From: Erythrobacter sp. YJ-T3-07
GTDB taxonomy: Bacteria > Pseudomonadota > Alphaproteobacteria > Sphingomonadales > Sphingomonadaceae
Assembly: GCF_015999305.1 (NCBI RefSeq)
Contig: NZ_JAEAGP010000001.1
Coordinates: forward strand, 1,860,001-1,924,000
DNA: 64,000 bases
Reading direction: 5' to 3'
Shown: positions 25,928 through 43,489 of the stretch, one piece after another
Layout: each line of letters begins with the position of its first letter
How positions within the stretch are numbered: position 1 is the first letter of the stretch
Program-made: the position numbers and the translations under genes
The notes under the pieces: model-generated
Told to the model about the DNA's origin: nothing
Databases searched by the model: none
The model's input: only the letters and a program-made list of their open reading frames with translations

Positions 25928-25942
25928 ATGGCGGACAGGGTG
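25928..25942 (+). repeat. attL of the integrated element
   Basis: ATGGCGGACAGGGTG is identical to 43399-43413, which holds the 3' end of tRNA-Ser (on the - strand, CACCCTGTCCGCCAT). The two copies are in direct orientation, as expected from site-specific insertion into the tRNA gene. Confidence 0.8.
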
Positions 25943-26119: not shown

Positions 26120-26824
26120 CTATTCGTCTGCAGGGTCGTCCTCTGCTGCAGTGCCGGTCGCATTGACTGATGTGATCCCTGCAGGCTGGGCCAGCTCGAC
26201 CCGCTTGGGCGGGGTGATTGCGCTCGCTTCGATTGCCACCGGGATCGCCTCTTCCGTGTAAGCCTTCAGCTCGCGACCCGCCGGCATGGCGCCACTCTTT
26301 CCGGTGATGAAAAAGCCACTGATCGGCACCAGCACTACACCGCCTACTGTGGCCAACGTGTTGCCCTCACCCTCCTGCCGGTAGGTGCCGTTGATCGGGA
26401 GGCGGCGGCCGCCGAGCTCGATGTAATCCATCTCGATATCGAACTTGCCGGATTTCCCGAACATTCCTTTGTCCGTCATCCAGGTGATTGTGCCGACCGC
26501 GCGCGTGCCACGAGGAATCACGATATACTCGCCCAGCATGACATCTTCCTCGACGGTCATGTCGAACTTGTCGCCCTCGCTCCAAGTATTGCCCTTGGTG
26601 GTGACTTCTTGGTTGAGCGATACGATAATTTCGGTGTTCGCGGGCAGTTCGGCGAGCCCTGGCTGCTCATCCCGGCGATATACTTGGATGGGCGTTGGCG
26701 CAGGCTGCGCGGTGCCCGTAGGGGCCTCTTGGCTCTCAGTTTCCTGAACAGCTACTTCCTGCCCAAGCGCGACTGCAGGCGCGCCAACAATCAAAAGCGC
26801 AAGCGCGCTAGTAGTGCGAATCAT
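26120..26824 (-). CDS. Secreted protein of unknown function (element cargo)
   Basis: A 234-residue protein with a signal peptide (LALLIVGAPAVALG). The mature domain runs LPANTEIIVSLNQEVTT, GDKFDMTVEEDVMLGEYIVI and PRGTRAVGTI. Its beta-strand pattern resembles the C-terminal barrel of VirB10/TrbI-like proteins, but the similarity is only by eye. A second half has GGVVLVPISGFFITGKSG. The start at 26824 follows a GGGGGC ribosome-like site; an alternative ATG lies 12 bases upstream. It is the last gene before attL, a position typical of phage cargo affecting the host envelope. Confidence 0.6.
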   Translation of the reverse strand: MIRTTSALALLIVGAPAVALGQEVAVQETESQEAPTGTAQPAPTPIQVYRRDEQPGLAELPANTEIIVSLNQEVTTKGNTWSEGDKFDMTVEEDVMLGEYIVIPRGTRAVGTITWMTDKGMFGKSGKFDIEMDYIELGGRRLPINGTYRQEGEGNTLATVGGVVLVPISGFFITGKSGAMPAGRELKAYTEEAIPVAIEASAITPPKRVELAQPAGITSVNATGTAAEDDPADE

Positions 26825-27013
26825 GTGAGCCCCCATCTTCCCCCTGGAGCAAAGATGCCCCGCGCGATGACTTAGCACGCGAGCTGCATTAGCCAAGCCG
26901 CTTATAATCTTAGGTTTATCTTCGGGCGGGCCTCAGGCCGCGCGCTACTTCTTGTCATATAGGCTCGAACCGAGCTGACACTTAGCGGCACGCGGGTGCA
27001 GATCGGTCGCCCA

Positions 27014-27271
27014 CTAAGCATTCCCCTCTACGTCTTTCGCCAGAGCCGTCGCCACTTCCGGATCGAGGCGAGCCCAAGCTTCCTGCATCCTCGCATGCGC
27101 ATCCATTAGGAGGTTGGCCACGGCGGTGGGCTGTGTGCTTCCCGACACCTTGTCCATGATGCGAATGAAAAGCTCCTTTTCGAAATCGTCAGGAGATTCC
27201 GCGCCTTCGCGCGCCAGCGCCTGAGCCAAGGCTCTCGCTGACGCCGCCTGATACTGATAAAAAGTCTTCAT
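27014..27271 (-). CDS. Small helical phage protein
   Basis: An 85-residue, Ala-rich, probably all-helical protein (YQAASARALAQALAREG, NLLMDAHARMQEAWARL) directly after the tape measure gene. The ATG at 27271 has a strong AGGAGG ribosome site 5 bases away; the upstream in-frame ATG overlaps that site. It is unrecognised. Its position after the tape measure would suit a tail accessory protein, which is inference only. Confidence 0.6.
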   Translation of the reverse strand: MKTFYQYQAASARALAQALAREGAESPDDFEKELFIRIMDKVSGSTQPTAVANLLMDAHARMQEAWARLDPEVATALAKDVEGNA

Positions 27272-27320
27272 CTCGACCTCCTGCATTTCTCGAAGCTCAA
27301 TAGCACCGCCACCCGAAAGG

Positions 27321-30257
27321 TCACAGCTTGGGTCTCGTCAGTTGCTGGGTGGTCTTGCTGACCGAAGCGTCGATGATCGTGGGCGCGCTGGCCCGAACCA
27401 CCTCCACCGCGACGCCGCTGGCTTCGGTGCGAACCCGGGCGGCGAAACCGGGCGCTTCCTCAATCATCACGCGAACCACCCCGCCCGACTGCCCGCTGTT
27501 CTGCATCGCGGCCATCTTCCCGAGTGGGATGATGTCGCCCGAGCCCTGCGGGACAAAGCCCTCAACACGGCCCGGGGATGCGCTTTCGTTGACACGATAG
27601 AGGCGTCCGCCCTCGACGCGACCACCCGACGCGCGCCCGAACACGCCGGAGAGCGAGCCACTGCTGGCATGGCCCACACCGCCGCCGCCGAAAATCCCGC
27701 CGATCGCAGACAGGAAACCGCCGACTCCGCCGCCAGCACCGCGCGCATCGGCCAGCGCGTTGGCGATCGGGCGCAGCAGGACTTGCTCGATCAGAATATC
27801 GAGCAAACCGGAAATAAGCGGATCGTCTGTCCCGATGGCGTCCTGCAACGCGTCTTTCATGCCGCGCCGAACGCCATCAATTTCGTCGACCACCACGCGC
27901 TCCGCTTCGTCGCGTAGCTGGCCTTCGGTCTTGTTGATGAGGCGGCGATAGCGCTGCAACGGGCTTTCGTATTCGCGGTCTAGGCCCTCACGCTCATTGG
28001 CCTGCACTTCTTCGATCAGCGCAAGGCGACGGCGGGCTGCGGCGAGCTCGGCCTCCTTCGCTCCGGCGATTTCGAGCTGCGCAATCGAGGTGCGCAGTTC
28101 GTTTCGCTCCTGCTCGTGCTGCAGGTCGAGGATCGAGCGCTCAAGCCGGGCACGTTCCTCGCGATCATCTACAAGTGCGGCCTGCGACGAGAGCAAGTCT
28201 TGCTGCGTGCGGTTGATTTCGGTGGAGAGTTGGAGCCCGCGGCGAATAACCTCTGCCTGCTCATCCTGAGCGACCTGCCGGGCGTAGAGCGACTTGTTGG
28301 CCTCGACCACGATCCGGCCTTGCTCGTCGACCTGAGAGGCAACGCCGTAGAGGTTACGGATGATTTCGATCTGCGCAGCCTTCTGCTCGCCGCTTAGTTC
28401 CTTGTCCCCCTGAATCTGCCGAATGCGCTGGTCGCGCTCAATCTCGAGCAGTTCGCGCTGCAGCTGCGCCCGATCTTCAGCATCGGAGGTCAGCTGAATA
28501 CGGGCCTGCAATTCCTCCGTTTGCAAACGCGCGATCTCGTCCGCCTGGCGGGCAGCGATATCAGAGGAGGTCGGTCCGGACGCTGCGGCGCGAGAGGAAG
28601 GGGAGCGGGCAGGCTTGGCGGCTGTGGCAACTGCTGTCGGCGTGATACCCGTACCATCGAGGTCCACGCCGTTCTCGATGGCGAGCCGGACGCCTTCGGC
28701 GCGCGCCTCAAGGGCGTCTTGCTCATCGCGAAGGAGGCGAAGCTCGCGCTGGTCCTGCAACACCTGGTTGGCCACCCCGAGATAGGCCTGCCCGCTATTG
28801 GTCTGGGCGAGGAAGGGGTTGCCACGGCGCCTCTCGCCTTCGCGGGCAAGGTCTCGGTTCCGATTGATCCGCTGAACAAGATCGTTCTGTCGGCCCAGGT
28901 TGTTCTGAAGGTCGGTGTAGATCCCGAGTTCTTTCAGCCGAGCGGTGAGCTCGGCGGCGCGCTGCGCGGCTACGCTCATGTTGCGCGACAGGCTGGCGAC
29001 CTTGTTCGATGCACCGGCAGCGAAACGGCCCATGCTGTCGGTAGCGACGCCCGCTTCATCAAGTCTCTGCGCAGCGTCACGCGCTGCGTCCGCCGTGGAC
29101 TTGGTGCGATCCTCAATCGCCTTCATCCGGCTTTCAGCAGTGGAAGCATTGTTCGCGACAAGGATCAGGCCTGCGGCAAGCGCGGTGATTGCTACTCCTA
29201 CAGGGCCGCCGAGGGCGGTGAGGAGAGCGGCGCCAGCCGATCGAGCAGCAAGAGCCGTGCCCGCGAGGCTGGTGGTTGCAATCGTGGCGTGGGCGGAGAT
29301 CGCCCGAAGCGCGGTGCCCCCAGCAAATGCACTCGCGACGAACCTTCCACCAAGGTTGGCAGCAAGGATCGCGATTGCCGGGATAAGCACGTCGATATTG
29401 TCGGCGAGCTTCTGGATGCCGGCGGCCACAGCTGCGCTCGCCCCGTTCGCCTTGTCGGCCTCGCCGATATAGAGCGTGAGCGCGTTGCGCAGGTTCGTGA
29501 ATGCTTGGCTGATCGTGCCATCTGCGGAGGCTGCTTGATCTTTCAGATTGCCAAGTGCAGCGACAATCCCGCGCATGAGCTCGACATTGGTGACGCCCGC
29601 GCCGTTGGTGTCCTTGATCTTGCGCGTGAGCCCGTCGAGCGAACCGCCCGTGCCGTCGATGAACTTCGCCGCTTCCTTCAAGAGCGGGCGCAGGCTGTCG
29701 ATCAGGCTGTTGTATTCCTCGGCTTGGATCCGCGACGAGCCGAATGCTTGCCCAAGTTGCAGGAGCGCGCCCTGCGCTTCGGTGGCGCTGATCCCGGAGA
29801 TGCGAAGTGAGGCCGAAACCGCTTCTGTGACGGCGAGCAAGTCTGCCTCGCTCGCCTGCAGGCTGTCAGCGCTCTGCGCGGCACGCGAATAGAGCGTGCC
29901 GACCGATTCGAGTTCGACGCCATACTGCTGGGCGAGGGCGAAAAGCTTTTCCTGAGTGGCGGCGAGACCAGCGCCTTCGAGGCCAGCTACCCGGAGGCTG
30001 TTCTGAAAGCGTGTGAACGTATCGACGAGGTTGATTAGCTCGCGCCCGGTGAAGGCGGTTGCCAGTGTTCCGGCGAGGCCTTTGAGCGTGTTGCTGATCT
30101 GTCCGGACGAGCGCTGGAATTGCTGCTCGAGCATGCGGACCCGCTTCTCTTGCGTGCCGAGTTCGCGATCCACCGTGCGCGTGGTGAGGCGCACCCCGTT
30201 TAGGTAGGCTTCGTGCCTCACCTTCAATTCGAGCACCACCGGGTCAATCTCCGGCAT
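27321..30257 (-). CDS. Phage tail tape measure protein
   Basis: Tape measure proteins set tail length and pass through the tail tube during DNA injection. This 978-residue protein has the N-terminal tape-measure domain (LINLVDTFTRFQNSLRVAG, SRAAQSADSLQAS, QLGQAFGSSRIQAEEYNSL). A hydrophobic middle spans residues 290-370 (IPAIAILAANLGG, GPVGVAITALAAGLILVA), followed by long coiled coils (residues about 560-830) and a Gly-rich C-terminus (GAGGGVGGFLSAIGGIFGGGG). The start is ATG 30257, or GTG 30260, behind GGAG. It is intact, although no tail tube, chaperone or baseplate genes are recognised nearby. Confidence 0.88.
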   Translation of the reverse strand: MPEIDPVVLELKVRHEAYLNGVRLTTRTVDRELGTQEKRVRMLEQQFQRSSGQISNTLKGLAGTLATAFTGRELINLVDTFTRFQNSLRVAGLEGAGLAATQEKLFALAQQYGVELESVGTLYSRAAQSADSLQASEADLLAVTEAVSASLRISGISATEAQGALLQLGQAFGSSRIQAEEYNSLIDSLRPLLKEAAKFIDGTGGSLDGLTRKIKDTNGAGVTNVELMRGIVAALGNLKDQAASADGTISQAFTNLRNALTLYIGEADKANGASAAVAAGIQKLADNIDVLIPAIAILAANLGGRFVASAFAGGTALRAISAHATIATTSLAGTALAARSAGAALLTALGGPVGVAITALAAGLILVANNASTAESRMKAIEDRTKSTADAARDAAQRLDEAGVATDSMGRFAAGASNKVASLSRNMSVAAQRAAELTARLKELGIYTDLQNNLGRQNDLVQRINRNRDLAREGERRRGNPFLAQTNSGQAYLGVANQVLQDQRELRLLRDEQDALEARAEGVRLAIENGVDLDGTGITPTAVATAAKPARSPSSRAAASGPTSSDIAARQADEIARLQTEELQARIQLTSDAEDRAQLQRELLEIERDQRIRQIQGDKELSGEQKAAQIEIIRNLYGVASQVDEQGRIVVEANKSLYARQVAQDEQAEVIRRGLQLSTEINRTQQDLLSSQAALVDDREERARLERSILDLQHEQERNELRTSIAQLEIAGAKEAELAAARRRLALIEEVQANEREGLDREYESPLQRYRRLINKTEGQLRDEAERVVVDEIDGVRRGMKDALQDAIGTDDPLISGLLDILIEQVLLRPIANALADARGAGGGVGGFLSAIGGIFGGGGVGHASSGSLSGVFGRASGGRVEGGRLYRVNESASPGRVEGFVPQGSGDIIPLGKMAAMQNSGQSGGVVRVMIEEAPGFAARVRTEASGVAVEVVRASAPTIIDASVSKTTQQLTRPKL

Positions 30258-30622
30258 CACGCCGTCTCCTTCAAATATCCGCCGCCCAGGCTTTTCCGAA
30301 AGATCGGGAAGAGGGCGGAAGCGCGTCGGGTTAGCCGTAGATCGTGCCAGTGCCCGGCTCGCCCTTCGCCAAGCTGCTCGATCGTCGCGTTGCGCACGGC
30401 GCGGTGAAAGCGGACCTCGTGCGGTTCATGGCCCGGTGCCTTGATGTCGATAGCCCGTGCCAGCCGACGGAACGGCGAGACCGACTGATCGTCGAGCTTG
30501 CACAGGTCGACCAGCGCAGCGGCCTTGAACGCCGCGATGATTTCGAGATGATCGGTGTCTATCCAGGCAGGCTCGGTCGCAAGGATCGAGGCGCCGATGC
30601 TCTCGGCCAGCTTCGTGCTCAT
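30257..30622 (-). CDS. Phage protein of unknown function
   Basis: A 121-residue, mixed-charge protein (STKLAESIGASILATEPAW, EIIAAFKAAALVDLCKL, several His later). It starts at ATG 30622 behind GGAGG, overlaps the stop of the 50-residue gene before it, and ends in the start of the tape measure gene. The position before a tape measure gene is where tail assembly chaperones usually lie, but the sequence is not recognisably one. Confidence 0.65.
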   Translation of the reverse strand: MSTKLAESIGASILATEPAWIDTDHLEIIAAFKAAALVDLCKLDDQSVSPFRRLARAIDIKAPGHEPHEVRFHRAVRNATIEQLGEGRAGHWHDLRLTRRASALFPIFRKSLGGGYLKETA

Positions 30623-30771
30623 CGACCGCCTCCGAAGCGCATATCCCAAGCCGCGCGCTGGGCGTCGGTAAAAAGGCGTTCGCGAACCTCGATCGGTGTC
30701 GACCGCGCCGCCTCGGGATAAGCGTCCGCCATGCGTTGCAGGTCGGCCTGGTCAGATGGTCGAGAGGTCAT
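30619..30771 (-). CDS. 50-residue protein between terL and the tail genes
   Basis: A small gene too short for usual ORF cut-offs. ATG at 30771 follows GGAGGG. It begins MTSRPSDQADLQRMADAYPE, continues with an IEVRERLFTDAQRAAWDMRF segment and ends in GGGR. Its start overlaps the terL stop by 20 bases, and its stop overlaps the next ATG. This tight coupling supports it as real. No family is recognised. Confidence 0.65.
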   Translation of the reverse strand: MTSRPSDQADLQRMADAYPEAARSTPIEVRERLFTDAQRAAWDMRFGGGR

Positions 30772-32041
30772 AAACCCTCCCGCTGCCTTGAAGCTCGGTC
30801 AGCGCCCAGACCAGCGCATCGGCACGGTCGGGGGAGCCTTCGCCGACGTAGCCAGACGGTGTCATCGAACAGAGCTGATCCTCGAGTTCCTTGAAGTGGC
30901 CGACGTGTGAAACCTTCTCCTGCTCGTAGAGTGCGGCTACCGGCTCGGCTCGCACTGCCTTGCCGCGGCTCGCGGTGACCGTCCTGACCGGCAATTCCTT
31001 TGCCACGCTTCGCAAGACTGCCTCGACCATGGCCCCGCCGAAGTTCTTCTCGGCGACCACGCGATCGGCGGCCCACTTGTCGTAGAGGTGCGCGACCCGG
31101 CGGGCCCAGCCTTCGGGCGATAGCTTGCAGCTGCCGTCCTCCAAGACGAAGTATCGGCCGTCCTGAGCCTTTCCGGCCACAACGATTCCGATCTCGTCGC
31201 CGGCATCCTTGCCGCTCGTCCCGCTAGGATCGACCGCGACCACGATGCGCTTGAGGTCGGGTGCACCCTTTACGCGGTGCGGCTCGATCATAGCCGTCGT
31301 CCACAGAGCGCCTTGCACGTCCTCAAGCAACTCGGCGAAGAGCTCCTGCCTGCCCAGGCGCGTGCCCTCGTAGCGTTCCCGCAGCCGATCGAGCGTGCCG
31401 GCAGGGAGGTTGTCGGAATTGTCGAAGGTCGAGCCGCGCGTGACCATTGCGCCAGCCGTGCGCAGGATCGTTCGGATCAGCGGCGTCGGCTTCGGGGTAG
31501 TCGTGGCGACCACCTGCGGATTTTCACCTAAGCGAAGCCCGAAAAGCAACTGATCCCATGCGGACGGGTCCGGCCACGCGGCGACCTCATCGCCCCATGC
31601 GCGATGATGCTGAGGGCCGCGCAGGCGCTCGGGTTCCGTTGCCGAGAAGAGCTTGAAGCGCGAGCCGTTCCATAGCGTGACTTCGCCGATCGACCGGTTC
31701 CAGTTCTCGACACAGATCTGCGGCAGGACGGCGAGCAAGCCGCTCTCCCCTTCGACGCAGGTGTCTCGCGCATCGGCAGCAGTGGGCGCGACGATAGCGA
31801 CGCGGACGCCCGGGTTCGCGCATGCGAACCATGCCACGTCTTCTGCACCCGTGCGGGTCTTTCCCCAGCCACGACCCGCCAGGGCAAGCCAGACAGGCCA
31901 GTCAATCCCCGGCGGTGTGATCTGATCCGGGCGGGCTTGAGAGAGCCACTTGCTGCGTGCTGTCAGCGCGGCTTGCAATTCCGGCTGCAGCCCGCTCAAG
32001 TGCTTCGGCGAAAGCTCCGAAGGCATCGTTTCCGGCGACAT
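30752..32041 (-). CDS. Phage terminase large subunit
   Basis: The DNA-packaging motor of tailed phages, with ATPase and nuclease activity. Its 429 residues show Walker A AGRGWGKTRTGAED (from about residue 55) and the Walker B acidic pair in HRAWGDEVAAW. The C-terminal RNase H-like nuclease has acidic residues in VVAVDPSGTSGKD, VAEKNFGGAM and DRADALVWAL. Length is normal and the motifs are intact. The start at 32041 has ribosome site AAGGGA 7 bases away, which makes it overlap the TerS gene by 140 bases. Confidence 0.9.
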   Translation of the reverse strand: MSPETMPSELSPKHLSGLQPELQAALTARSKWLSQARPDQITPPGIDWPVWLALAGRGWGKTRTGAEDVAWFACANPGVRVAIVAPTAADARDTCVEGESGLLAVLPQICVENWNRSIGEVTLWNGSRFKLFSATEPERLRGPQHHRAWGDEVAAWPDPSAWDQLLFGLRLGENPQVVATTTPKPTPLIRTILRTAGAMVTRGSTFDNSDNLPAGTLDRLRERYEGTRLGRQELFAELLEDVQGALWTTAMIEPHRVKGAPDLKRIVVAVDPSGTSGKDAGDEIGIVVAGKAQDGRYFVLEDGSCKLSPEGWARRVAHLYDKWAADRVVAEKNFGGAMVEAVLRSVAKELPVRTVTASRGKAVRAEPVAALYEQEKVSHVGHFKELEDQLCSMTPSGYVGEGSPDRADALVWALTELQGSGRVYDLSTI

Positions 32042-32384
32042 TCACAGTCCCTTCGATGAGGGGTTTGTCGCGGAAGGCGATCGACAGCTTGCCCAGCTTC
32101 CACCGAACAGCATCGAATGCGAGCCGAGCAGCTTGCGGATCAGTAGGGTTCTCGGCAGCGGGCGCGAGTGCGATCGCCATCCCCTCTTCGGCCAAGGCGA
32201 GATACCCGATTTCGCGTGCTTCTCGAAGGCGACCGGCAAGCTCGTCGTTTCCTTCGCACCAACGCCACACCGTCGTCTTGGCCGGGAAGCCGTCGAGCCG
32301 GCAGATTTCGGACAGCGACTTACCCTCTTCGAGAAGGGCTGCGATGCGGTCGATGACCGCGGGAGGATACTTGGTCGGCTGCAT
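31902..32384 (-). CDS. Phage terminase small subunit-like protein
   Basis: A 160-residue protein with an N-terminal helix-turn-helix (PAVIDRIAALLEEGKSLSEI, FPAKTTVWRWCEG), as in TerS proteins that recognise the packaging site. A helical middle (LAEEGMAIALAPAAENP) and a C-terminal coil follow. It sits directly before terL. The frame is open far upstream, but the ATG at 32384 has a GAGAGG site and starts the recognisable domain. Its last 46 codons overlap terL in another frame. Confidence 0.75.
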   Translation of the reverse strand: MQPTKYPPAVIDRIAALLEEGKSLSEICRLDGFPAKTTVWRWCEGNDELAGRLREAREIGYLALAEEGMAIALAPAAENPTDPQAARLAFDAVRWKLGKLSIAFRDKPLIEGTVNVAGNDAFGAFAEALERAAAGIASRADSTQQVALSSPPGSDHTAGD

Positions 32385-32514
32385 TTGCCTCTCTCGTTCG
32401 AACCGGCGGGGATGCCACCAACAAGCACCCCCGCCGGACAGGTTACGCCGCGCGGGGCGAAGATCGTGAAACCCCGCGCGGCGACCAAGACGGCGTGGTC
32501 GCGGACCGCCTGGT

Positions 32515-33396
32515 TCACTGTTCCTGCTCCCCGCCGATCGCCTCCACGTTAAGGTGGGGAACGTCGCGCAACTCAACGGCGACGGCGTGGGCGATTTCAC
32601 CGGTCCAAGGCGTCCCGTAGAACAGGCTCCTTGGCAGATTATGCTGCTCGGCAACCTGGCTGGGGAGGATCACCGGCTTTCCCACGAGGCCGGTGGACAA
32701 GCGATACGCGCCATGAAGCCGATTGTGCTCGGCAGCCGCGCGCCTCGCTCGCTCTTCACGCTTTTCACGTTCCAACCGGCTGTCCCGCATAGCTTTGCCG
32801 TAATCGAACTCGGCCACCGCCGCTCTGGTCTTCGGCCATGCGCGTCCAGCGCCATCGAAGTTAGGGAGCTTGAGTTTGACGAAGGCTTCAGCGGAGTTGA
32901 CCTCCATCATTCCATTTCCTGGGATGCCTCGCGCGTGCCACTCTGCATTCGCTTCGTGGACGCCAGCGAGCCTCATGCGCTCGGCGTTGGCGTTGACTGC
33001 CTCGAAGAGGTCGATCAACTCCGAAACAATCGCAGGCACGCGCTCCGCGAACCGTGCTGAAATCTCGTCGCGTTGGACCAACGCAGCTCGCGCTTCGGCA
33101 CGCTTGGCCTGTTGGGTGTCGCTCTCGCGCTTCTGCTCGAGCTTGCCGATAAACTGGGGGAGTAGCTTTGCGAGCCCTGCAATGTCGCGACTGTATTTCG
33201 CCGCCTTCGCGGCTGCCTCATCGCGATCATCTTCGTTTAGCGCAAAATCGATGCTCTCTGCGCTGGCTTGTTCGTGCGCGGTGGAGAGGCGATCCTGTTC
33301 GAGCTCGATATCCGCAATGAGCTGTTCGAGTGTTTCAATGGTGACGCGATCGGTCGACCGCGCACTGGCGATGCGTTCTTGCAGCGATTTTGCCAT
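32515..33396 (-). CDS. Coiled-coil phage protein of unknown function
   Basis: A 293-residue protein. The first 120 residues form long charged helices (ETLEQLIADIELEQDRL, AKAAKYSRDIAGLAKLL), and a second helical block runs from about 120 to 160. The C-terminal third is more globular with HNLPRSLFYGTPWTGEIA. It starts six bases after the end of the 151-residue gene and precedes TerS. Scaffold and phage head-associated proteins can look like this, but nothing identifies it. Confidence 0.65.
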   Translation of the reverse strand: MAKSLQERIASARSTDRVTIETLEQLIADIELEQDRLSTAHEQASAESIDFALNEDDRDEAAAKAAKYSRDIAGLAKLLPQFIGKLEQKRESDTQQAKRAEARAALVQRDEISARFAERVPAIVSELIDLFEAVNANAERMRLAGVHEANAEWHARGIPGNGMMEVNSAEAFVKLKLPNFDGAGRAWPKTRAAVAEFDYGKAMRDSRLEREKREERARRAAAEHNRLHGAYRLSTGLVGKPVILPSQVAEQHNLPRSLFYGTPWTGEIAHAVAVELRDVPHLNVEAIGGEQEQ

Positions 33397-33402
33397 GAAG
33401 CA

Positions 33403-33858
33403 TCACCCGCCGTAACGCATGTCGCGAACATAGTCGCGAACCTGCTGACCATTGCCCACCTTGGCAGTGTTACCGGACGCAGAGGGCTTATGTGCCTCAG
33501 GGATCCCGCTCATAACCGAATCTCGGATGGCCGCTGATCTGGCGGCGACGCGCCGTTGACGGGCAAGAAACTCGGCACGCTCACGATCAAACGCGGGAGC
33601 TGCGTCACCGAGAAAGGCGAACTTGGTGACATGGACCGCCAGCTCGCGGTCGACTTCGGCGCGAATGGCGTCTTCCGATCCATCGTCCTTGAGGAAGATC
33701 CCGCGCGAGCTCGAAGGCGCGCTATCCACGAAGGCGAGGTCGAAGCGCAGGCTTTCGCCGGGTGCGAGGATTTCCTTGTAGCCTGGACGAAGGCGGCCTG
33801 CGGTCATCGCCTCGTCGGCGGTGCAGGGTGAACCGGTAGGGGAAAGGTAATTCGGCAT
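33403..33858 (-). CDS. Phage protein of unknown function
   Basis: A 151-residue protein with an N-terminal beta-rich half (LAPGESLRFDLAFVD, GIFLKDDGS) and a C-terminal helical Arg-rich half (ERAEFLARQRRVAARSAAIR). It is the first gene of the leftward late operon, after a divergent gap containing a terminator-like hairpin. It is not recognised. Its tail QQVRDYVRDMRYGG resembles the ends of other small genes in this operon. Confidence 0.6.
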   Translation of the reverse strand: MPNYLSPTGSPCTADEAMTAGRLRPGYKEILAPGESLRFDLAFVDSAPSSSRGIFLKDDGSEDAIRAEVDRELAVHVTKFAFLGDAAPAFDRERAEFLARQRRVAARSAAIRDSVMSGIPEAHKPSASGNTAKVGNGQQVRDYVRDMRYGG

Positions 33859-33978: not shown

Positions 33979-34542
33979 ATGAATAGAAACGTGATCATCG
34001 CAGCCGTTGTCGGGTTGGTGCTGGTGTTGGGCGCTGGCTGGTATTTCGCCTCGCCTGCAATGGCGCTGTCACAGCTTAGGCAGGCGGCGATCGACGGGGA
34101 CGCCGAGAAGCTCGAAGAGAGCATCGACTTTCCGGCTGTCCGCGAATCCTTGCAGGCGGAACTGCGTGCGGCCATGGCGGCGGAGATGGCCCGTCAGCAG
34201 GAAGCAGGTGAAGATGGCTTCGGGATGCTCGGAGGCGCGCTCGCGATGGGCATGGTCGACCCGATGGTGGACGGTTTCGTGAACCCCCAATCGATGGCCA
34301 GCATGATCGAAAAGGGGAAGATGGACCGCATGAGAGCGGGTGAGGCGGGTGATGAACCTGAGACGGAAGCCAACGCGGAGCCTACCGATTGGGATATCGC
34401 GCGTGATGGGTTCAGCCGTTTTACCGCAACGCCGGTTGCTCCCGAAGGCGAGCGGGTGCCGACTATGGTCTTCGAACGTGACGGCTTTGGATGGAAGCTT
34501 GCCGGCATCGATCTGCCAGAAGGGCCGTTGAACGCCGATTAA
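33979..34542 (+). CDS. DUF2939 domain protein (membrane-anchored)
   Basis: A 187-residue protein. An N-terminal membrane anchor (NVIIAAVVGLVLVLGAGWYF) is followed by the DUF2939 pattern ASPAMALSQLRQAAIDGDAE then IDFPAVRESLQ, with Met-rich middle and acidic stretch and a C-terminal beta segment (VFERDGFGWKLAGIDLP). The function of the family is unknown; it is found in envelopes of many proteobacteria. The ribosome site GGGGGAG is 9 bases upstream. It is one of only two clearly rightward genes in the element and looks like host-envelope cargo. Confidence 0.75.
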   Translation: MNRNVIIAAVVGLVLVLGAGWYFASPAMALSQLRQAAIDGDAEKLEESIDFPAVRESLQAELRAAMAAEMARQQEAGEDGFGMLGGALAMGMVDPMVDGFVNPQSMASMIEKGKMDRMRAGEAGDEPETEANAEPTDWDIARDGFSRFTATPVAPEGERVPTMVFERDGFGWKLAGIDLPEGPLNAD

Positions 34543-34953: not shown

Positions 34954-35796
34954 TCAGTCAGGGATGGTCCAATTCACCGAGCCCTCGAACACGCCAGGCA
35001 CCTCGTTGCCTCCTTCATCGATCGCTGGCCGGAAACGTGCTCGTCGGCTGACGAGTGTGCAGGTGAGCTCATCAAGCTCAGCGTTGCCCGAACTTTCGGC
35101 AATCTCGCAACTGTCGGCACGCCCGGCGGTGTTCACGGCAAGGCGAAAGGCGACACGCCCCTCAACCCTGGCGGCAATCATCGAAGACCTGTAATCCGAG
35201 CCACTGATCCAGAGTCGATTGACAGGGACTGGCTCACGCGGCCCCATGGGCTTAGCGGCCGCGAAGGGGTCGCGAGGCAAGTCAGCATATCGTGCCTCGT
35301 ATGCCTTTTGCTCAGCTATCTCCTGGCGAACCTTGGCGACGCATTGGTTCAAGGTGACGAGAGCATTGGCGGTGCCATCGAGGGAGAGTTTATCGATCCG
35401 GTCTTCGCCAAGGAAGACATGAAGGGTTGAACCTTTGGCAAAGTCCCGTTCGAAGCCATCTCCCATATTCAGCACCAGGCCTCCACCAAGGCTGCGCTTG
35501 AAGCCAATGGCACCGGCTCCCCCGTATTCCTTCCCATTCAGGACAAGAGATGCATCGTAATTCTCTTGATCCTTCACGCTCCAGTTGTCGTTGCCAACCG
35601 AAACGGCCACGGTTCCATCAACGCCTTTGATCAGGCCCAATGTAGACGATCCAGGCCCCTCGTATTCGAGCCACATACTGCAATCGTCGTCATCTTTGAG
35701 GATCACCCAGTCCGAACGCTCGGCGTAAAAGTCGGCAGCAAGAACTGGGGAGGTGAGGAGGCTCGCCGAAGCGATGAGTATGACTGCCGTTCGCAT
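34954..35796 (-). CDS. Secreted protein with TonB C-terminal domain
   Basis: A 280-residue protein with a cleavable signal peptide (LIASASLLTSPVLA). A beta-rich N-terminal domain is followed by a C-terminal TonB-type domain (ARVEGRVAFRLAVNTAGRAD, SGNAELDELTCTLVSRRARF, ending in a beta strand EGSVNW). It lacks the N-terminal membrane anchor and Pro-rich spacer of a true energy-transducing TonB, so it is probably a periplasmic protein using the fold for another purpose. Such a gene on a phage-like element may modify the host envelope. Confidence 0.7.
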   Translation of the reverse strand: MRTAVILIASASLLTSPVLAADFYAERSDWVILKDDDDCSMWLEYEGPGSSTLGLIKGVDGTVAVSVGNDNWSVKDQENYDASLVLNGKEYGGAGAIGFKRSLGGGLVLNMGDGFERDFAKGSTLHVFLGEDRIDKLSLDGTANALVTLNQCVAKVRQEIAEQKAYEARYADLPRDPFAAAKPMGPREPVPVNRLWISGSDYRSSMIAARVEGRVAFRLAVNTAGRADSCEIAESSGNAELDELTCTLVSRRARFRPAIDEGGNEVPGVFEGSVNWTIPD

Positions 35797-36215: not shown

Positions 36216-36818
36216 ATGTGCAACCTCTACCGCATGACGAAGGCGCAGGCCGAGATAGCGAGGATGTTCAACGCGAGCAGCACCGCTGGCGCGAACTTCG
36301 CAGATGAGGTCTACCCCGGCTATTCCGGCGCGGTGATCGCCGGTGGCGAGCTGCGGTCCATGGTGTGGGGCTTCCCCCTCACCCAGAAGAGCAAGAAGAC
36401 CGGTGAGCCACTCAAGCCGCGCCCGGTGAACAACGCGCGATCGGACAACCTGGGAAGCTTCATGTGGCGCTACAGCTTCGAGGAGCGGCGGTGCCTGATC
36501 CCGCTGACCGCGTGGGCAGAGGCGGAAGGAAAGCGGGGAGCGATGACGCGCACCTGGCTATCCCTGTCAGGCGACGACGCTTTCGCGGTTGCGGGCATCT
36601 GGCGCACAAGCGACGAATGGGGCGACTGCTATTCGATGGTGATGACCGACGCGGCCGGCGCGGCTGCCGAGGTCCACAATCGCATGCCGGTGATCCTCTC
36701 GCCCGATCAATACGAAGAGTGGCAGGAAGGATCGCCGGAAGAGGCTCTGTCATTGTGCCGACCATGGGATGGCCTGCTGAAGATCGATCGCACCGGAGAG
36801 CATTGGGCGAGGCGCTGA
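36216..36818 (+). CDS. SOS response-associated peptidase (SRAP/YedK/HMCES family)
   Basis: A 200-residue SRAP protein. The family covalently traps abasic sites in single-stranded DNA through the N-terminal Cys. The catalytic set is present: Cys2 directly after Met, Asn73 (VNNARSD), the Glu in TAWAEAEGK (about 102) and His154 in EVHNRMPVIL. The ATG at 36216 is required so that Cys2 is exposed. It may protect replicating phage or host DNA during SOS induction, or have an anti-defence role. It is convergent with the primase gene. Confidence 0.9.
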   Translation: MCNLYRMTKAQAEIARMFNASSTAGANFADEVYPGYSGAVIAGGELRSMVWGFPLTQKSKKTGEPLKPRPVNNARSDNLGSFMWRYSFEERRCLIPLTAWAEAEGKRGAMTRTWLSLSGDDAFAVAGIWRTSDEWGDCYSMVMTDAAGAAAEVHNRMPVILSPDQYEEWQEGSPEEALSLCRPWDGLLKIDRTGEHWARR

Positions 36819-37049: not shown

Positions 37050-39341
37050 TTACGAACTTAATGCGGTACGGATCATCTCGCGAGCGACAGCACGGCGAGC
37101 GAGTTCCTCCTTGCCCCGGTCAACAAACCGCTCATGCACAAGGGGATTTACTAGGAAACGAGGCTTATTGCTCTTCCGCGCCGGCTCTGCCCATTCACCC
37201 CAGCCAAAAGCCTCGAGCTTTTCGCATAGAAGCCTGACTTCATCGGCTGTGAAGTGGCGGAAGGATTGTGATGAGCTTTGCACATCGCGAGCCTTCACCT
37301 CCTGAACCCCAGACCCTACTATCCATGACGCAAGGTCGACCAGCTGCTCATGGCCCGCCGACATGCCCAACATCCCGGCGTAGAATGCGATCGCGCTCGG
37401 ACGGAGGAATTGTTCCATAAAGGATGCGACTCGCTCCGCAGTGTTGCCGGAGATTTCCAGAGGTGGCTGTATCTGGTCGGAGTGATCGACGCAGTGCCAG
37501 AGAACGCAGAGCCGGGCGAACAGGCCATCGTATTTACCGAAATGGGCGGCAAGCTTCGGGGAGATGGCCTCAAGTGCGGACACGAGATCAAGATGCTCTT
37601 GTTCGAGCCGCTCGCGTATGGCTCGAGCATTGTCGTCCAAGCGAAGGGAGGAAGTGAAATTTCCGTGCCCGATGGCGCCACTTCGCTCGGATGGGCGCAT
37701 AACTTCTAGGCGCTCAATCAGCCTTTCGTAGTCAGCGAGGGTGTTGTCGGTCGGAACGTCGCGACCAACTTTCCCTGGGCGCAAAATGACGGGCAATAGT
37801 CGCTGCACTAAGCCGTCATCGTGGGTATCGTTGGCAATAGAACGGATCGGCTCCGGTTGGATGCCGCCAAGTAAGCTGATCGAACAATTTGGGATGTAGG
37901 AGGCACCACGTGCGATACGGTTCAGGCTGTAGCTCCCGCCATTGAAGGCTTGAAGCCAGAACCCACGATCGGCTTGAGAGCCCTTTCCGGGCGCGTATTT
38001 ATCCATCGCCCCGAACCAACCGGACAATTCATCCTGTGCAGACAGAACACCCCGCGGCGAGTCTCGCAGCACTTCCTGCGCCGCCTCGATCGTTGCGTCC
38101 GCAATGACGCGACGTTCCTGCCTGGGCGGCTCGGCTGCCTTCCTCTCTTTGGTGCTCAGAGCGTCGTATTCTTGGCGCTTGCCCACATAGACGCGCATGA
38201 GGTTCGCATCGATCCGCTTCAAAGGACGCAGAGCTGCACTCATAATCGGCGTCTTCTTCATCGAAGGTGAGCCGACCAAGCCAACCCAAAGTCGAGCGCT
38301 CTCTTTCCACGTGGGGTCATGGCGCTTCACCTGCAGCTTGATCTCGTCTGTGATCGCGGCCGCACAGACGCACAGGGTGGCCATCGCCAAGCCGGCAGGA
38401 TCGACGCCCATGATTTCAGCGTGCCCGCGGGCGAATCGTTCAACGGCTTCTGGAAGCAATCCTTCAGGCAACTCCGGCGCCGCGTAATGGCGCCAGAGAT
38501 CCACCGGCTCTGGGTGGCACGAGGGCTGGGCAAGTTTGTCTGCGATCAAGGCGTGGAGTTCCTTCGAACCGCTCTCCCAATCCAGAATATCGCCCCCATC
38601 TGGCAGCCCGGGAAGGCGAAGCAAGGTTGGCGATCCTTCCGCCCGCTCGACCGCCTCGACCGTCGACTGCGCCTGCTTCTCGCCGGCCTCATCGTTGTCG
38701 GGCAGGATGAAAACCGTCCGCCCCTTTACATAGCCGGAGAATTCGAACCCCTTCCAATCCTTGTGGCTGGTGGCGAGGAAGCCCCATCCAGCAAGCCGAT
38801 CGGCCTTCGCCTCGCCCTCGACCATGAGGATAGGCAGGTCTCGCGGAGCAGCAAGCAGGTCGGGCAGGCGATAGGGGACACGGTCGTCGCCAGCGCCGCG
38901 AACCCATCCACCCTTTCCGTTCGGGCGATCGTATCGGAACGACTTCGACCGTCCGTCCGGTCCTGGTTCGATGCGATGTTTCCGATACAGCAGAGCACCG
39001 TCGGCCGCCAGAAACTCGAAAGTCGCGACGATCTTCTGCCCGGGGCCAAGCCCAACGGCGTGATCGGGTGGAGGTGTTGTATCCCGCTGAGGAGGTGACC
39101 AGGGGATTCGGTCCCCGGGGGCCTGCAGCGGGGGCAGGAAGTTGTCTGCGCGCAGCCTGTCCTTCTCCGCGAGCGGGTCTCCGCCGTTGAAGCAATGAAC
39201 AAGGCACCCGTCCGGCGCATCGTCCGCAGCCCGAACAGCAACACCCCTATCGCGGGCACTATGCCCGATGGCAGGGATGAGCGCCTGGCCACCCGAAACT
39301 TCGCCGCCGTAGTGCCGCGCGATGGCGTGGATATCGATCAT
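37050..39341 (-). CDS. DUF3987/TOPRIM primase-helicase of the element
   Basis: A replication protein of 763 residues. The N-terminus has a primase-like region, and a TOPRIM domain is visible as ILMVEGEAKADRL and TVFILPDNDEAGEK. The C-terminal two thirds match DUF3987 helicase-like domains (SARLWVGLVGSPSMKKTPIM, where a Walker-type GSPSMKKT stands for the P-loop; LSAQDELSGWFGAMDKY, SISLLGGIQPEPI). Such proteins start replication of satellites and prophages. The start at 39341 overlaps the stop of the 77-residue gene. The three overlapping upstream genes form one operon with it. Confidence 0.8.
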   Translation of the reverse strand: MIDIHAIARHYGGEVSGGQALIPAIGHSARDRGVAVRAADDAPDGCLVHCFNGGDPLAEKDRLRADNFLPPLQAPGDRIPWSPPQRDTTPPPDHAVGLGPGQKIVATFEFLAADGALLYRKHRIEPGPDGRSKSFRYDRPNGKGGWVRGAGDDRVPYRLPDLLAAPRDLPILMVEGEAKADRLAGWGFLATSHKDWKGFEFSGYVKGRTVFILPDNDEAGEKQAQSTVEAVERAEGSPTLLRLPGLPDGGDILDWESGSKELHALIADKLAQPSCHPEPVDLWRHYAAPELPEGLLPEAVERFARGHAEIMGVDPAGLAMATLCVCAAAITDEIKLQVKRHDPTWKESARLWVGLVGSPSMKKTPIMSAALRPLKRIDANLMRVYVGKRQEYDALSTKERKAAEPPRQERRVIADATIEAAQEVLRDSPRGVLSAQDELSGWFGAMDKYAPGKGSQADRGFWLQAFNGGSYSLNRIARGASYIPNCSISLLGGIQPEPIRSIANDTHDDGLVQRLLPVILRPGKVGRDVPTDNTLADYERLIERLEVMRPSERSGAIGHGNFTSSLRLDDNARAIRERLEQEHLDLVSALEAISPKLAAHFGKYDGLFARLCVLWHCVDHSDQIQPPLEISGNTAERVASFMEQFLRPSAIAFYAGMLGMSAGHEQLVDLASWIVGSGVQEVKARDVQSSSQSFRHFTADEVRLLCEKLEAFGWGEWAEPARKSNKPRFLVNPLVHERFVDRGKEELARRAVAREMIRTALSS

Positions 39342-39571
39342 GCCGCCGCCTCGCTTTCGAGGTCGTCGACAATCACGATGGGCAGGCCATTCCGGCCGGG
39401 CCATTGCTTCAAGAGCTCGAGCAGCCCATCGAGCGGTAGCACCGGCTTGAAGTCGATCGAGTCAGTCCATTCGTCTCCGGCATATGCCGCAACCCAATGG
39501 GTTCGATCGCGGTTGAAAGGCTCTACGCGGATGGCGCGCGAAGGCGCCTTGGGGAAGCGGATGAGTGTCAC
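39338..39571 (-). CDS. Small protein upstream of the primase
   Basis: A 77-residue protein (TLIRFPKAPSRAIRVEPFNR, LDGLLELLKQWPGRN, ending IVIVDDLESEAAA). Both ends overlap neighbours by four bases (ATGA), a strong sign that it is translated as part of the primase operon. No family is recognised. Confidence 0.65.
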   Translation of the reverse strand: MTLIRFPKAPSRAIRVEPFNRDRTHWVAAYAGDEWTDSIDFKPVLPLDGLLELLKQWPGRNGLPIVIVDDLESEAAA

Positions 39572-39849
39572 GTGTCACCGTCCAGCGCGACGAATGCGCC
39601 GCACCATCCCGATGCGCTAACCCACGGCCATGCACCTTCAGAGAGACCATCTTGAACAAGGCTGGGGGGAAGGGCACGACACTCGCCAAAACCGCCATCG
39701 CCAGGCTCGAAGTTACAGCATCGGCCGCAACTGCGGCTTGCCGCCGCGCCGTTTTGCGGGTATGCTTCGGTTCGAATTTCGCCCCTGACAAGACGATTTT
39801 CAGAGCCGCCCTTGCAGGGGCGGCTTTTTCGTTCAGGCGGTCCGATCAT
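39568..39849 (-). CDS. Small Cys-rich phage protein
   Basis: A 93-residue protein whose second half has the recurring phage pattern C-x2-C-x-F ... G-x-CR-x2-PP ... WP ... WCG-x-F (SCGRCCNFEPGDGGFGECRA, then WPWVSASGWCGAFVAL), likely a small zinc-binding fold. The ATG at 39849 overlaps the HTH gene's stop and has GAGGA before it. A rightward terminator hairpin lies across codons 8-16, an unusual feature. Confidence 0.65.
   Translation of the reverse strand: MIGPPERKSRPCKGGSENRLVRGEIRTEAYPQNGAAASRSCGRCCNFEPGDGGFGECRALPPSLVQDGLSEGAWPWVSASGWCGAFVALDGDT
39804..39829 (+). terminator. Rightward intrinsic terminator inside the Cys-rich gene
   Basis: AGCCGCCC at 39804-39811 pairs perfectly with GGGCGGCT at 39818-39825, followed by TTTT. 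It is oriented against the primase operon. No + strand protein gene precedes it, so it could end an antisense or small RNA. Confidence 0.6.
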
Positions 39850-40028
39850 GCTTCCTCGCGATCGGGTTCAACGCCCAGATATTCATGCAGCGAGCGCGCA
39901 TCGATAAGCCGTCGCCGACCGACGAGCTTCGAGCGGATTTTGTTGGCCATCAACGCTCGATGGATAGTGATTTGATGAAGGCCAGTCAGCTCGCTGGCTT
40001 CTTTCACGCTGTAGGTCAGCTTATTCAA
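39846..40028 (-). CDS. Excisionase/AlpA-like helix-turn-helix protein
   Basis: A 60-residue DNA-binding protein. KEASELTGLHQITIHRALMA and KLVGRRRLIDARSLHEYLG give the winged-HTH pattern of the excisionase/MerR-like family (helix-turn-helix type 17). It begins the primase operon. It may be the element's excisionase or a transcription factor for the operon; the sequence alone cannot separate these. Confidence 0.75.
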   Translation of the reverse strand: MNKLTYSVKEASELTGLHQITIHRALMANKIRSKLVGRRRLIDARSLHEYLGVEPDREEA

Positions 40029-41133: not shown

Positions 41134-41546
41134 TGCTGCCGCTCCATCTCTGCTCGAAGGGCAGTGCTTTGCCCGATGGTCATATCGGTCAGCCGCGCGA
41201 AGGAATAGGCCTCCAAGCCACCGACGGTCTCCTGCATTTCCGCCAGCCTATCGATGATCCTGCGGCGATCCTCTTTTGGGAACTCTTGCAGGATCATCAG
41301 CGAGAGCAGCATCTCTGACGAGCGGCCATGCTTCCGCATAGCGCGGGCATACGGCTCCTCGGCCCGCAAGTGCGGGTGTCGATATGGAAACGACTGGCCT
41401 TGCGATTCGCGCAAGTCGCGCTTGGCGCGACGCGCTTGCTGATTGTGCCGCTGCTGGACCTTCCGCGGTGCCGCAGTTGGCAGGATCTCGACATTGGAAG
41501 GCCGGCGTGCTCGCAACTCGCGTAGGGTGGGCGTTCGGATGCTCAT
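41130..41546 (-). CDS. Unknown protein of the early cassette (138 residues)
   Basis: A strongly basic N-terminal half (QRHNQQARRAKRDLRESQGQ) that could bind nucleic acid, and a helical C-terminal half (MLLSLMILQEFPKEDRRRII, DRLAEMQETVGGLEAY). It overlaps both neighbours by four bases. It is not recognised. Confidence 0.6.
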   Translation of the reverse strand: MSIRTPTLRELRARRPSNVEILPTAAPRKVQQRHNQQARRAKRDLRESQGQSFPYRHPHLRAEEPYARAMRKHGRSSEMLLSLMILQEFPKEDRRRIIDRLAEMQETVGGLEAYSFARLTDMTIGQSTALRAEMERQQ

Positions 41547-41896
41547 TTCACCCCTCCCACTTGGCCATAGTAGCTTTCCAGAGCATGCGCCCGCATGTGG
41601 CTCTGCAGGGCTCGTCGCGCGTGCGGCACGGAATCGAGCATCGCAATCATCGCCCGCATTCTGCCGCCATGATGCGCGGAGTTATAGGCCCTTGTGTTCT
41701 CTCTCATTCCTTTCGGCAGGTCGGCGCTTGGTTTGGCATAGCCAGGTCCAGTAGGCTCGGGGTTCCAGCCGATTGAGCCGGTTCCGTCCCGCTGCGCGAA
41801 CACTGATCCGCCATACCGGGTCCACTCTTCCAGCCATGCGGCGACAAACAGGTCTAGCCCTGGCGCGATCGCATCGGGTATCGGGTTCGCAGTCAT
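41543..41896 (-). CDS. Unknown protein of the early cassette (117 residues)
   Basis: First gene of the coupled cassette after the integrase. ATG at 41896 follows AGGAG by 9 bases. The N-terminal helix contains LDLFVAAWLEEWTRYGGS, and the C-terminal half is His/Arg-rich (SAHHGGRMRAMIAMLDSVPH). It is not recognised; small early genes at this position in phages are often regulators or anti-defence factors. Confidence 0.6.
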   Translation of the reverse strand: MTANPIPDAIAPGLDLFVAAWLEEWTRYGGSVFAQRDGTGSIGWNPEPTGPGYAKPSADLPKGMRENTRAYNSAHHGGRMRAMIAMLDSVPHARRALQSHMRAHALESYYGQVGGVK

Positions 41897-41974: not shown

Positions 41975-43243
41975 TCACTCCGGCGAAGCTTGTTGCACTC
42001 CTGCAGCTGCCCGCATCCGCGCGCGATAGGCAGCATCGAGACCATGCCGGACCTTCGTCCGGCCTTCGAGAAAATCATCCCATTGCTGCATGAGGTCGAG
42101 GCGCTGATCGAGAAAAAGGGTTCGCTGATAGGCGGCCTTCACCTCGTTTTCGAGCGCATGGGCCATCGCAGCGTCGATCACTGCGGCCTCGAAATTGGTG
42201 TGCTCTGCCGCCCAATCCTCGAAGGTCGATCGCCACCCGTGAAGGGTTGCGCCATCGATAAACTCGTCTTGCACCTTCTTGAGACTGGTATCGCTGATCG
42301 CGCTCTTGGCCGGTTTCATGGGGCTGGGAAAAACGAAATCGGCGTCTTCTTCGTCGGGCAGCGGAATAGCCTTGACGATTTTCAGGATATCGATCGCACC
42401 TTCGGGAAGCGGAACGACGTGAGGTTCGTCTGTTTTCATTCGTTGCGCAGGGATCGACCAAAGCCCGTTTTCCAAGTCCATTTCGTCCCAGCGCGCCGCC
42501 CGCCCGATGCCAGGGCGTAAGGCCGTCAGAATCTGGAAGCGCAGAGCCTCGGCCGCTCGCGTCCCCTTTTTCTTGAGCTCGCCATAGACGCGAGGAGCCT
42601 CCTCGATCGGCACGGCCGGGAAGTGCCTCACCTTCTTCTTCTGTCGCCCCAGGGCAGAGCGGATCACGTCCCGCGGCAGTTCGGCATCGCGCAGGCCTTC
42701 GCCAACCGCCCAGCGCGCAACGTCGCAAATGCGCTGCAGCGTCCGCCGGGCTGTCTCTTTCTTCTCGAGCCAGATCGGCTGGAGAGCAGCCTTCACGTCA
42801 GAGTGATGAACGTCGGCGATCGAGATCTCGCCGAGGGTAGGGTAGGCATAAGCACGGAGCGTGTTGATCCATTGATCGACGTGCTTGCCGTTCTTGAACG
42901 CCCCTTTTCGCTCTTCCCAGCATTGCTCCGCGGCCATCCTGAAAGTGAAGGCACGGCGGCGTGCCTTCCGCTTCTCCTCGATCGGATCGAGCCCGTCCCG
43001 AACCATACGGCGATATTGCGCTGCACGTTCGCGAGCCTCGGCAAGGGTGACTTCTGGATAGGCACCCAACCCCAGGTCGCGTCGCCTCCCGCTCGGCACC
43101 CTGATGCGACAGGTCCACGATTTCGCTCGACCCGACGGCGCCACATTGAGAATCAGTCCGTCGCCGATCGAATGGCGCCCAGTCTCTTTCGCTAGAGCTT
43201 CGAGCTCTCTTACGGTAATAGGACGAGGGCGGAGATAGGGCAT
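41975..43243 (-). CDS. P4-type tyrosine integrase
   Basis: A 422-residue site-specific recombinase of the P4/DUF4102 group. The N-terminal arm-binding domain (LGLGAYPEVTLAEARERAAQ) and core-binding region are normal for the family. Catalytic residues are visible as Arg in ILTALRPGIG, the HGWRSTFEDWAAE His-x-x-Arg, the later His in MAHALEN, and the nucleophile Tyr in VKAAYQRTLF. It lies next to attR in tRNA-Ser, which it presumably recognised. It is probably active because all catalytic positions are kept. Confidence 0.92.
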   Translation of the reverse strand: MPYLRPRPITVRELEALAKETGRHSIGDGLILNVAPSGRAKSWTCRIRVPSGRRRDLGLGAYPEVTLAEARERAAQYRRMVRDGLDPIEEKRKARRRAFTFRMAAEQCWEERKGAFKNGKHVDQWINTLRAYAYPTLGEISIADVHHSDVKAALQPIWLEKKETARRTLQRICDVARWAVGEGLRDAELPRDVIRSALGRQKKKVRHFPAVPIEEAPRVYGELKKKGTRAAEALRFQILTALRPGIGRAARWDEMDLENGLWSIPAQRMKTDEPHVVPLPEGAIDILKIVKAIPLPDEEDADFVFPSPMKPAKSAISDTSLKKVQDEFIDGATLHGWRSTFEDWAAEHTNFEAAVIDAAMAHALENEVKAAYQRTLFLDQRLDLMQQWDDFLEGRTKVRHGLDAAYRARMRAAAGVQQASPE

Positions 43244-43398: not shown

Positions 43399-43413
43399 AT
43401 GGCGGACAGGGTG
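43399..43413 (+). repeat. attR of the integrated element
   Basis: ATGGCGGACAGGGTG, identical to attL. It covers the CCA end, discriminator, acceptor 3' strand and the first T-stem bases of tRNA-Ser, so insertion keeps the tRNA complete. Confidence 0.8.
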
Positions 43414-43489
43414 GGATTCGAACCCACGGTGAGCGTAAACCCACGGCGGTTTTCAAGACCGCTGCCTTAAACCACTCGGCCACCTGTCC
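43400..43489 (-). tRNA. tRNA-Ser (UGA anticodon)
   Basis: A 90-base serine tRNA. The acceptor stem is GGACAGG paired with CCTGTCC, with discriminator G and an encoded CCA end (43400-43402). The anticodon arm GCGGT-CTTGAAA-ACCGC contains TGA. A long variable arm follows, and the T-loop TTCGAAT is canonical. Its 3' end is the attachment site of the integrated element. Confidence 0.95.

Follow-up and report, generated by a model that had tools for sequence, protein, structure and literature searches.

The locus studied here raises the question of whether a phage terminase operon that runs straight into a tape measure gene belongs to a functional mobile element or is left over from a prophage. 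The window, a 64,000-nucleotide stretch of the genome of Erythrobacter sp. YJ-T3-07, harbors this operon on the minus strand. From 33858 to 27321 its genes encode, in this order, a 151-aa protein, a 293-aa protein, TerS, TerL, a 50-aa protein (p50), a 121-aa protein (p121), and a tape measure protein (TMP) of 978 aa.

Organization of the Late Operon

TerS (31902..32384, minus strand) is Sf6-like (PF20901, E 3.7e-19; phrog_1482, E 2.1e-23). This assignment was based on Pfam and PHROG matches and not on our in-house HMMs, in which the TerS seed row from the window was out of frame; the ATG at 32384 is most likely its start. TerL (30752..32041, minus strand) comprises ATPase and nuclease (PF03237, PF17289, phrog_979); its exact start within the overlap with TerS is uncertain. 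The small proteins p50 (30619..30771, minus strand) and p121 (30257..30622, minus strand) gave no hit among Pfam and PHROG families at a cutoff of E 0.1. p50 is 41% like the product of a 56-aa gene of the related satellite L032, and p121, which occupies the slot before TMP, is shared with the relative L118 (42%). A correspondence of p50 to the small phage gene that follows TAC was considered and found unconvincing (25 and 31% identity). TMP (27321..30257, minus strand) comprises 978 residues when read from the ATG and 979 from the GTG at 30260 (PF20155, E 2.4e-38; phrog_339, E 4.5e-56).

Neighboring genes overlap at each junction from TerS through TMP, by 140 bp for TerS/TerL, 20 bp for TerL/p50, 4 bp (ATGA) for p50/p121, and 1 or 4 bp (GTGATG) for p121/TMP. 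The continuous overlap of TerL, two tiny genes, and TMP, on which the preliminary description had laid weight, was thus verified. The same applies to the lack of recognized capsid, portal, and tube genes in this TerS-TerL-TMP operon, which was confirmed by Pfam and PHROG scans. PHROG profiles were run against 20 ORFs of the window, a set that does not include a few small ORFs in the integrase half such as 39338-39571, 39846-40028, and 41543-41896, and no family for capsid, portal, head completion, tail terminator, tail tube, or baseplate was matched.

Ends of the Element

An extent of 26120..33858 had originally been given, which proved too small: att repeats delimit an element of ~17.5 kb, bounded by a 15-bp direct repeat at 25928 and 43399 (exact repeat ATGGCGGACAGGGTG). 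attL (25928..25942) is a remnant of a tRNA-Ser 3' end, and attR (43399..43413) is formed by the 3' end of tRNA-Ser(TGA) at 43400-43489. A tyrosine integrase gene (41975..43243, minus strand; PF22022, PF13356, PF00589, phrog_1) adjoins attR, and a primase-helicase of the DUF3987 type is encoded at 37050..39404 (minus strand; PF13148, E 2.9e-47; phrog_2373). The element therefore combines the features of an integrated phage satellite, namely an integrase with att repeats at a specific site, a replication gene of its own, and a partial set of virion genes.

Occurrence and Gene Content of Related Elements

When 148 related genomes were searched for TMP, 24 gave a match, in most cases a partial one. 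Scanning with TerL retrieved 346 relatives from viral contigs, from which 80 loci were retained, and 12 loci from species genomes; at E 1e-130, a TerL search of 396 order genomes returned only the genome of the window. The 293-aa protein served as the family marker. Carriers of the marker are rare: 5/397 family genomes, 3/396 order genomes, and 1/385 class genomes, the genome of the window being included in each of these overlapping draws. The marker protein alone gave no confirmed match among viral contigs. A primase search of viral contigs led to 12 loci, among which L152 was the only family member by annotation; it is the L033 contig again and was left out of the locus count.

Altogether, 11 marker loci were collected: the window, L118 (a Porphyrobacter MAG), L117 (a Novosphingobium MAG), the viral contigs L033, L034, and L032, and L113/G021, L136/G473, L137/G312, L138/G482, and L157/G355. 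Genes in these loci were predicted with our own script, and the in-house HMMs used to assign them took their seeds from the same loci. TerL was present in 8/11 loci and not seen in the stretches of L137, L138, and L157, and TMP was present in 10/11, once in broken form (L117), and not seen in the stretch of L157. The TerL/TMP pair is thus not universal across the marker loci. In several members, TerL and TMP flank homologs of the phage Neck1 and TAC genes; Neck1 was found in 8/11 and TAC in 3/11 marker loci, and TAC was not recognized in the window. A shortened protease (267-284 aa) occurs in 3/11 marker loci; its phage counterpart measures 367-388 aa in the prophage of G081, L129, and phage Ssp-JY40. 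The element of G482 has a gene for a DNA-invertase-like recombinase (L138:13509-14213) next to its protease and marker genes.

Two further elements could be delimited by repeats. L118 ends in a 47-bp repeat at tRNA-Lys (17.2 kb) and L136/G473 in a 23-bp repeat at tRNA-Asn (19.75 kb), so that, together with the window, three elements are bounded by att repeats, each at a different tRNA gene. Convincing att repeats were found neither for G312 nor for the L032 contig. A 6-kb element of G355 (L157:10226-16245), flanked by a 16-bp repeat at tRNA-Ser(GCT), carries integrase and marker and neither TerL nor TMP.

Seven loci (window, L118, L113, L033, L034, L032, and L136) possess the marker together with TerL and TMP that are both intact. 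In these, the gap between TerL and TMP is 0-1279 bp and contains no head genes, and the fragment L035 shows the order TerL-113 aa-TMP_2. No capsid, portal, or tube was among the best 25 of 34 PHROG families obtained for 86 ORFs from eight loci (L118, L034, L033, L136, L032, L137, L138, and L113), a part of their unassigned ORFs. The order TerL-small genes-TMP without capsid genes, which the preliminary description had named as support for a satellite, accordingly recurs in further family genomes and on viral contigs. Because the same order is found in divergent loci, the arrangement is more than a product of chance.

Comparison with Complete Phages

Complete phages with related TMPs are organized differently. 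TerL and TMP are separated by 12.9 kb in G081 and by 11.1 kb in Ssp-JY40, and these stretches contain portal, protease, capsid, connectors, terminator, and tube. Both phages resemble the satellites in their homologous TMP, Neck1, TAC, and protease, but differ in possessing this full head-tail operon of 11-13 kb, in lacking a marker gene in the stretches examined, and in their TerLs, which are distant from those of the satellites. The preliminary description had held that the satellite reading would be refuted by relatives carrying capsid and tail genes in the interval from terL to tmp. Such relatives were encountered only as marker-less phages whose TerLs lie outside the satellite cluster; the contig L040, with its portal gene after TerL, falls inside that cluster.

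Over the first three hundreds of residues, the TMP of L118 is 81, 95, and 73% identical to that of Ssp-JY40. The idea that TMP ends are matched to the helper was abandoned, as an end-conserved pattern was also present between two phages and is not specific. Ssp-JY40 (L154, PP438430.1) has Synechococcus as its recorded host, which may deserve a check because it is the closest phage in the TMP tree to the satellite from the Porphyrobacter MAG. In the prophage of G081, the final 133 residues of TerL (L168:2021-3403) are ~60% like satellite TerL, but the protein is distant overall, making a mosaic possible. The portal of the same prophage (L112:445-2376) has a C-terminal match to the Acb1 (anti-CBASS) domain (PF23474, E 5.8e-47).

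Selection and Phylogeny

dN/dS values were calculated by the Nei-Gojobori method with our own script. For TerL they amounted to 0.043 (L033/L034), 0.093 (window/L118), and 0.15 (window/L113). In the pair L033/L034, values of 0.025, 0.048, and 0.18 were obtained for TerS, Neck1, and TMP, respectively, and all but one of the amino acid changes in TMP lie behind residue 500. The distant TMP pairs window/L118 (0.40) and window/L113 (0.45) carry little weight at a dS of 1.6-1.7, as do the values for TAC (0.16), the marker (0.25), and the 151-aa protein encoded from 33403 (0.26), determined at dS of at least 1.6; two further pairs were saturated. These ratios show strong purifying selection on TerL and purifying selection on TMP; the preliminary description had named values well below 1 as support for a satellite.

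In a TerL tree of 24 rows, ten satellite rows, counting the short contigs L035 and L036 on which no marker was seen, formed one cluster together with the phage-like L040 (100/100). L040, with a portal gene right after TerL, sits inside this cluster on a long branch, and the portal carriers L037-L039 and L120 are placed next to it. The tree of TMP N termini (20 rows, without L136, whose TMP is of another family) had a different shape. L118 paired with phage Ssp-JY40 (99/100) and L033/L034 with the phage contigs L129/L130 (95/93), and the window adjoined the latter group (100/99). A single clade of eight satellite TMPs (without L137) was rejected (AU, p 0.0005). In L136 (G473) and in the L035 fragment, the TMP slot is filled by TMP_2, another Pfam family. 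Because satellite TMPs interleave with phage TMPs and TMP_2 occupies the slot in L136 and L035, we deduced that the TMP slot persists under changing occupants, through exchange that may have run either way.

These data bear on the plain alternative named in the preliminary description, i.e. that the loci are stripped prophages in slow decay from which head and tail genes were deleted and in which TerL and TMP were left by chance. Some family members do decay, as is evident from L117, where TMP is broken and the locus has neither integrase nor primase. The 6-kb element of L157 looks like a remnant, and full phages with related TMPs exist. Decay does not readily account for the retention of the same gene set in divergent elements at different tRNAs, for low dN/dS, for overlapping genes, for intact att sites in three elements, or for a TMP that was exchanged instead of lost. 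Relaxed selection, judged by TerL and TMP of L033/L034 and TerL of window/L118, and broken genes were not seen outside L117, and the reading frames are open. On these grounds slow decay is disfavored, and we consider it unlikely.

Candidate Cargo Genes

A DUF2939 protein encoded at 33979..34542 on the plus strand is a candidate defence protein of the PDC-S55 type (PF11159, E 1.7e-25; PADLOC PDLC05037, E 1.4e-41). Genes on the opposite strand upstream of the marker region are also present in L118, L033/L034, L113, and L136, and this recurrence suggests that the position is a cargo slot. Other possible cargo comprises a protein with a TonB C-terminal domain (34954..35796, minus strand; PF03544, E 1.2e-10), a SOS-response-associated peptidase (SRAP; 36216..36818, plus strand; PF02586, E 4.9e-26), and a 238-aa protein between TMP and attL (26120..26836, minus strand) that was without matches in Pfam and PHROG (cutoff E 0.1) and in PADLOC. 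Also unmatched in Pfam and PHROG at this cutoff was an 85-90 aa protein encoded downstream of TMP (27014..27286, minus strand).

TAC, TMP, and Neck1 function in tail assembly and joining. With the candidate defence gene inside the element, this fits the notion of a defence island in which virion proteins act as decoys or dominant negatives and poison infecting phages, without transfer of the element. Interference with tail assembly is indeed known as a defence from the cited part of PMC11364771. The notion leaves the full TerS-TerL pair, the primase, the integrase with its att sites, and the low dN/dS of TerL unexplained and is, in our view, improbable.

The Marker Protein and Its Neighbor

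The largest conserved gene near TerL without an assigned family is the marker (32515..33396, minus strand), found in 11 loci. Its AF2 model (pLDDT 83, pTM 0.43) consists of a long coiled coil, with long helices within residues 20-143, and a small C-terminal domain. Neither the PDB nor a viral library contained a fold match at E<=0.001, and tblastn against 50,697 phage records gave no match at E 0.01. The possibility that the marker gene is a hidden capsid or portal gene, raised in the preliminary description, was rejected on the basis of the coiled coil and the missing fold match. In some known satellites, capsid size is redirected by a scaffold-like protein. Because of this precedent, and because the marker adjoins protease-like genes, we infer that it is a candidate capsid-assembly or size factor.

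The adjacent 151-aa protein (33403..33858, minus strand) sits where L032, L033, and L138 have a shortened head protease. A link to the protease over 21 columns is weak (probability 60%), the structural model is poor (pLDDT 59), and the protein is at best a tentative candidate for a trimmed head protease. The marker and the 33403 protein are the best candidates for control of head assembly or capsid size.

That the element makes heads of its own with unrecognized capsid genes, as a divergent cf-PICI would, appears most improbable: cf-PICIs carry TerS and TerL (as described in PMC10690885) and some a putative tmp (according to PMC12987554, as cited), and several genes of the element have no assignment, but the largest of these near TerL is the coiled-coil marker, portal and capsid are absent among the families named in the scans, and the other such genes between 33858 and TMP encode just 50-151 aa.

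Helper and Proposed Mode of Propagation

A helper prophage of this type, which the preliminary description had suggested seeking elsewhere in the same genome, was looked for and not found. A TMP_3 profile search of the window's genome returned a sole match, the element's own TMP, and the capsid (alignment A6) and portal (phrog_146) of this phage type were present in 0/8 satellite-bearing genomes, both being detected in the control G081. The helper would come from outside the genome, as it does for PLE. Phages like Ssp-JY40 are no more than leads, and a fit between the satellite motor and the portal of a G081/Ssp-JY40-type helper is an assumption, since these two phages have TerLs distant from those of the satellites.

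The element is quite probably a phage satellite of an apparently undescribed family that uses its own terminase to fill helper heads with its DNA and assembles chimeric tails on its own TMP. Upon infection by a helper with a G081/Ssp-JY40-type tail, the element would excise and replicate. Its own TerS-TerL would load element DNA into heads whose capsid and portal come from the helper, and its TMP, with p50/p121 (TAC and Neck1 in relatives), would nucleate tails for which the helper supplies tube and tip. The outcome would be chimeric tails like those of PLE satellites. Exchange of TMPs with phages has taken place, presumably to suit the tail of the current helper or to evade defences directed at the TMP of the helper. 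We infer this mechanism and its function from homology and precedent. TMP is a target of injection-stage defence according to the cited part of PMC13190303, which offers one possible reason for TMP exchange.

More tentatively, the combination of a terminase with an exchangeable TMP may be the signature of the family, which would seize the two ends of virion assembly, the motor and the tail core, and swap TMP families along with helpers or with TMP-directed exclusion and defence. If so, TMP swapping could give satellite DNA access to cells from which the helper is barred. The family also shows that carrying only part of the virion genes can be a strategy instead of a sign of prophage decay, which matters for prophage annotation.

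Relation to Known Satellites

PICIs rely on the TerL of their helper; the present element has its own. An element with capsid, portal, connectors, and TerS/TerL would be a cf-PICI, the class on which Alqurainy 2023 reportedly focuses; here, TerS/TerL are present and no capsid or portal was recognized. PICI/SaPI and P4-like satellites, described in part in PMC10690885, share an integrase and a replication gene with the element, and scaffold-like redirection of capsid size in some of them is a possible parallel to the coiled-coil marker, but they depend on helper TerL and helper tails. cf-PICIs are similar in integrase, TerS, and TerL (PMC10690885) and, in some cases, in a putative tmp (PMC12987554), and differ in encoding capsid, portal, protease, and connectors (PMC10690885, as cited), of which capsid and portal were not found here.

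A close parallel is provided by the PLE satellites of Vibrio cholerae, for which a 2026 study reports chimeric tails (PMC12987554). According to the parts of that study cited here, PLE11 forms such tails from its own TMP, TAC, and BhuB, its virions contain the satellite TMP and exclude that of the helper, and transduction falls by 96-99.9% without tmp in three PLEs. The preliminary description had regarded a satellite with its own motor and TMP as an unusual strategy; the reading as a satellite is supported, and the claim to be unprecedented has been overtaken by PLE (PMC12987554). PLEs are integrated satellites of similar size (~18 kb; PMC10803314, as cited) with their own TMP and TAC and a helper capsid (PMC12987554), and the window shares the possession of its own TMP. 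As far as gene descriptions allow the two to be likened, the present family differs in also encoding TerS and TerL, in its Sphingomonadales hosts, in TMPs that interleave with phage TMPs, and in TAC, recognized in 3/11 marker loci and not in the window.

No Sphingomonadales satellite and no TerS-TerL-TMP satellite was described among the literature matches listed, a set to which subscription papers and preprints do not belong. The lineage, the combination of TerS, TerL, and TMP without capsid, and the TMP exchange are thus likely to be new, the strategy itself having recently been recognized. The cited parts of the PLE study, including the legend of Extended Data Fig. 10, assign putative tmp genes to PLE-like elements and to cf-PICIs, note predicted tmp in unrelated satellites, and state that the benefit of altered tails is still to be worked out (PMC12987554). 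An alphaproteobacterial family with a phage-exchanged TMP and its own terminase would be a natural comparison for testing that benefit.
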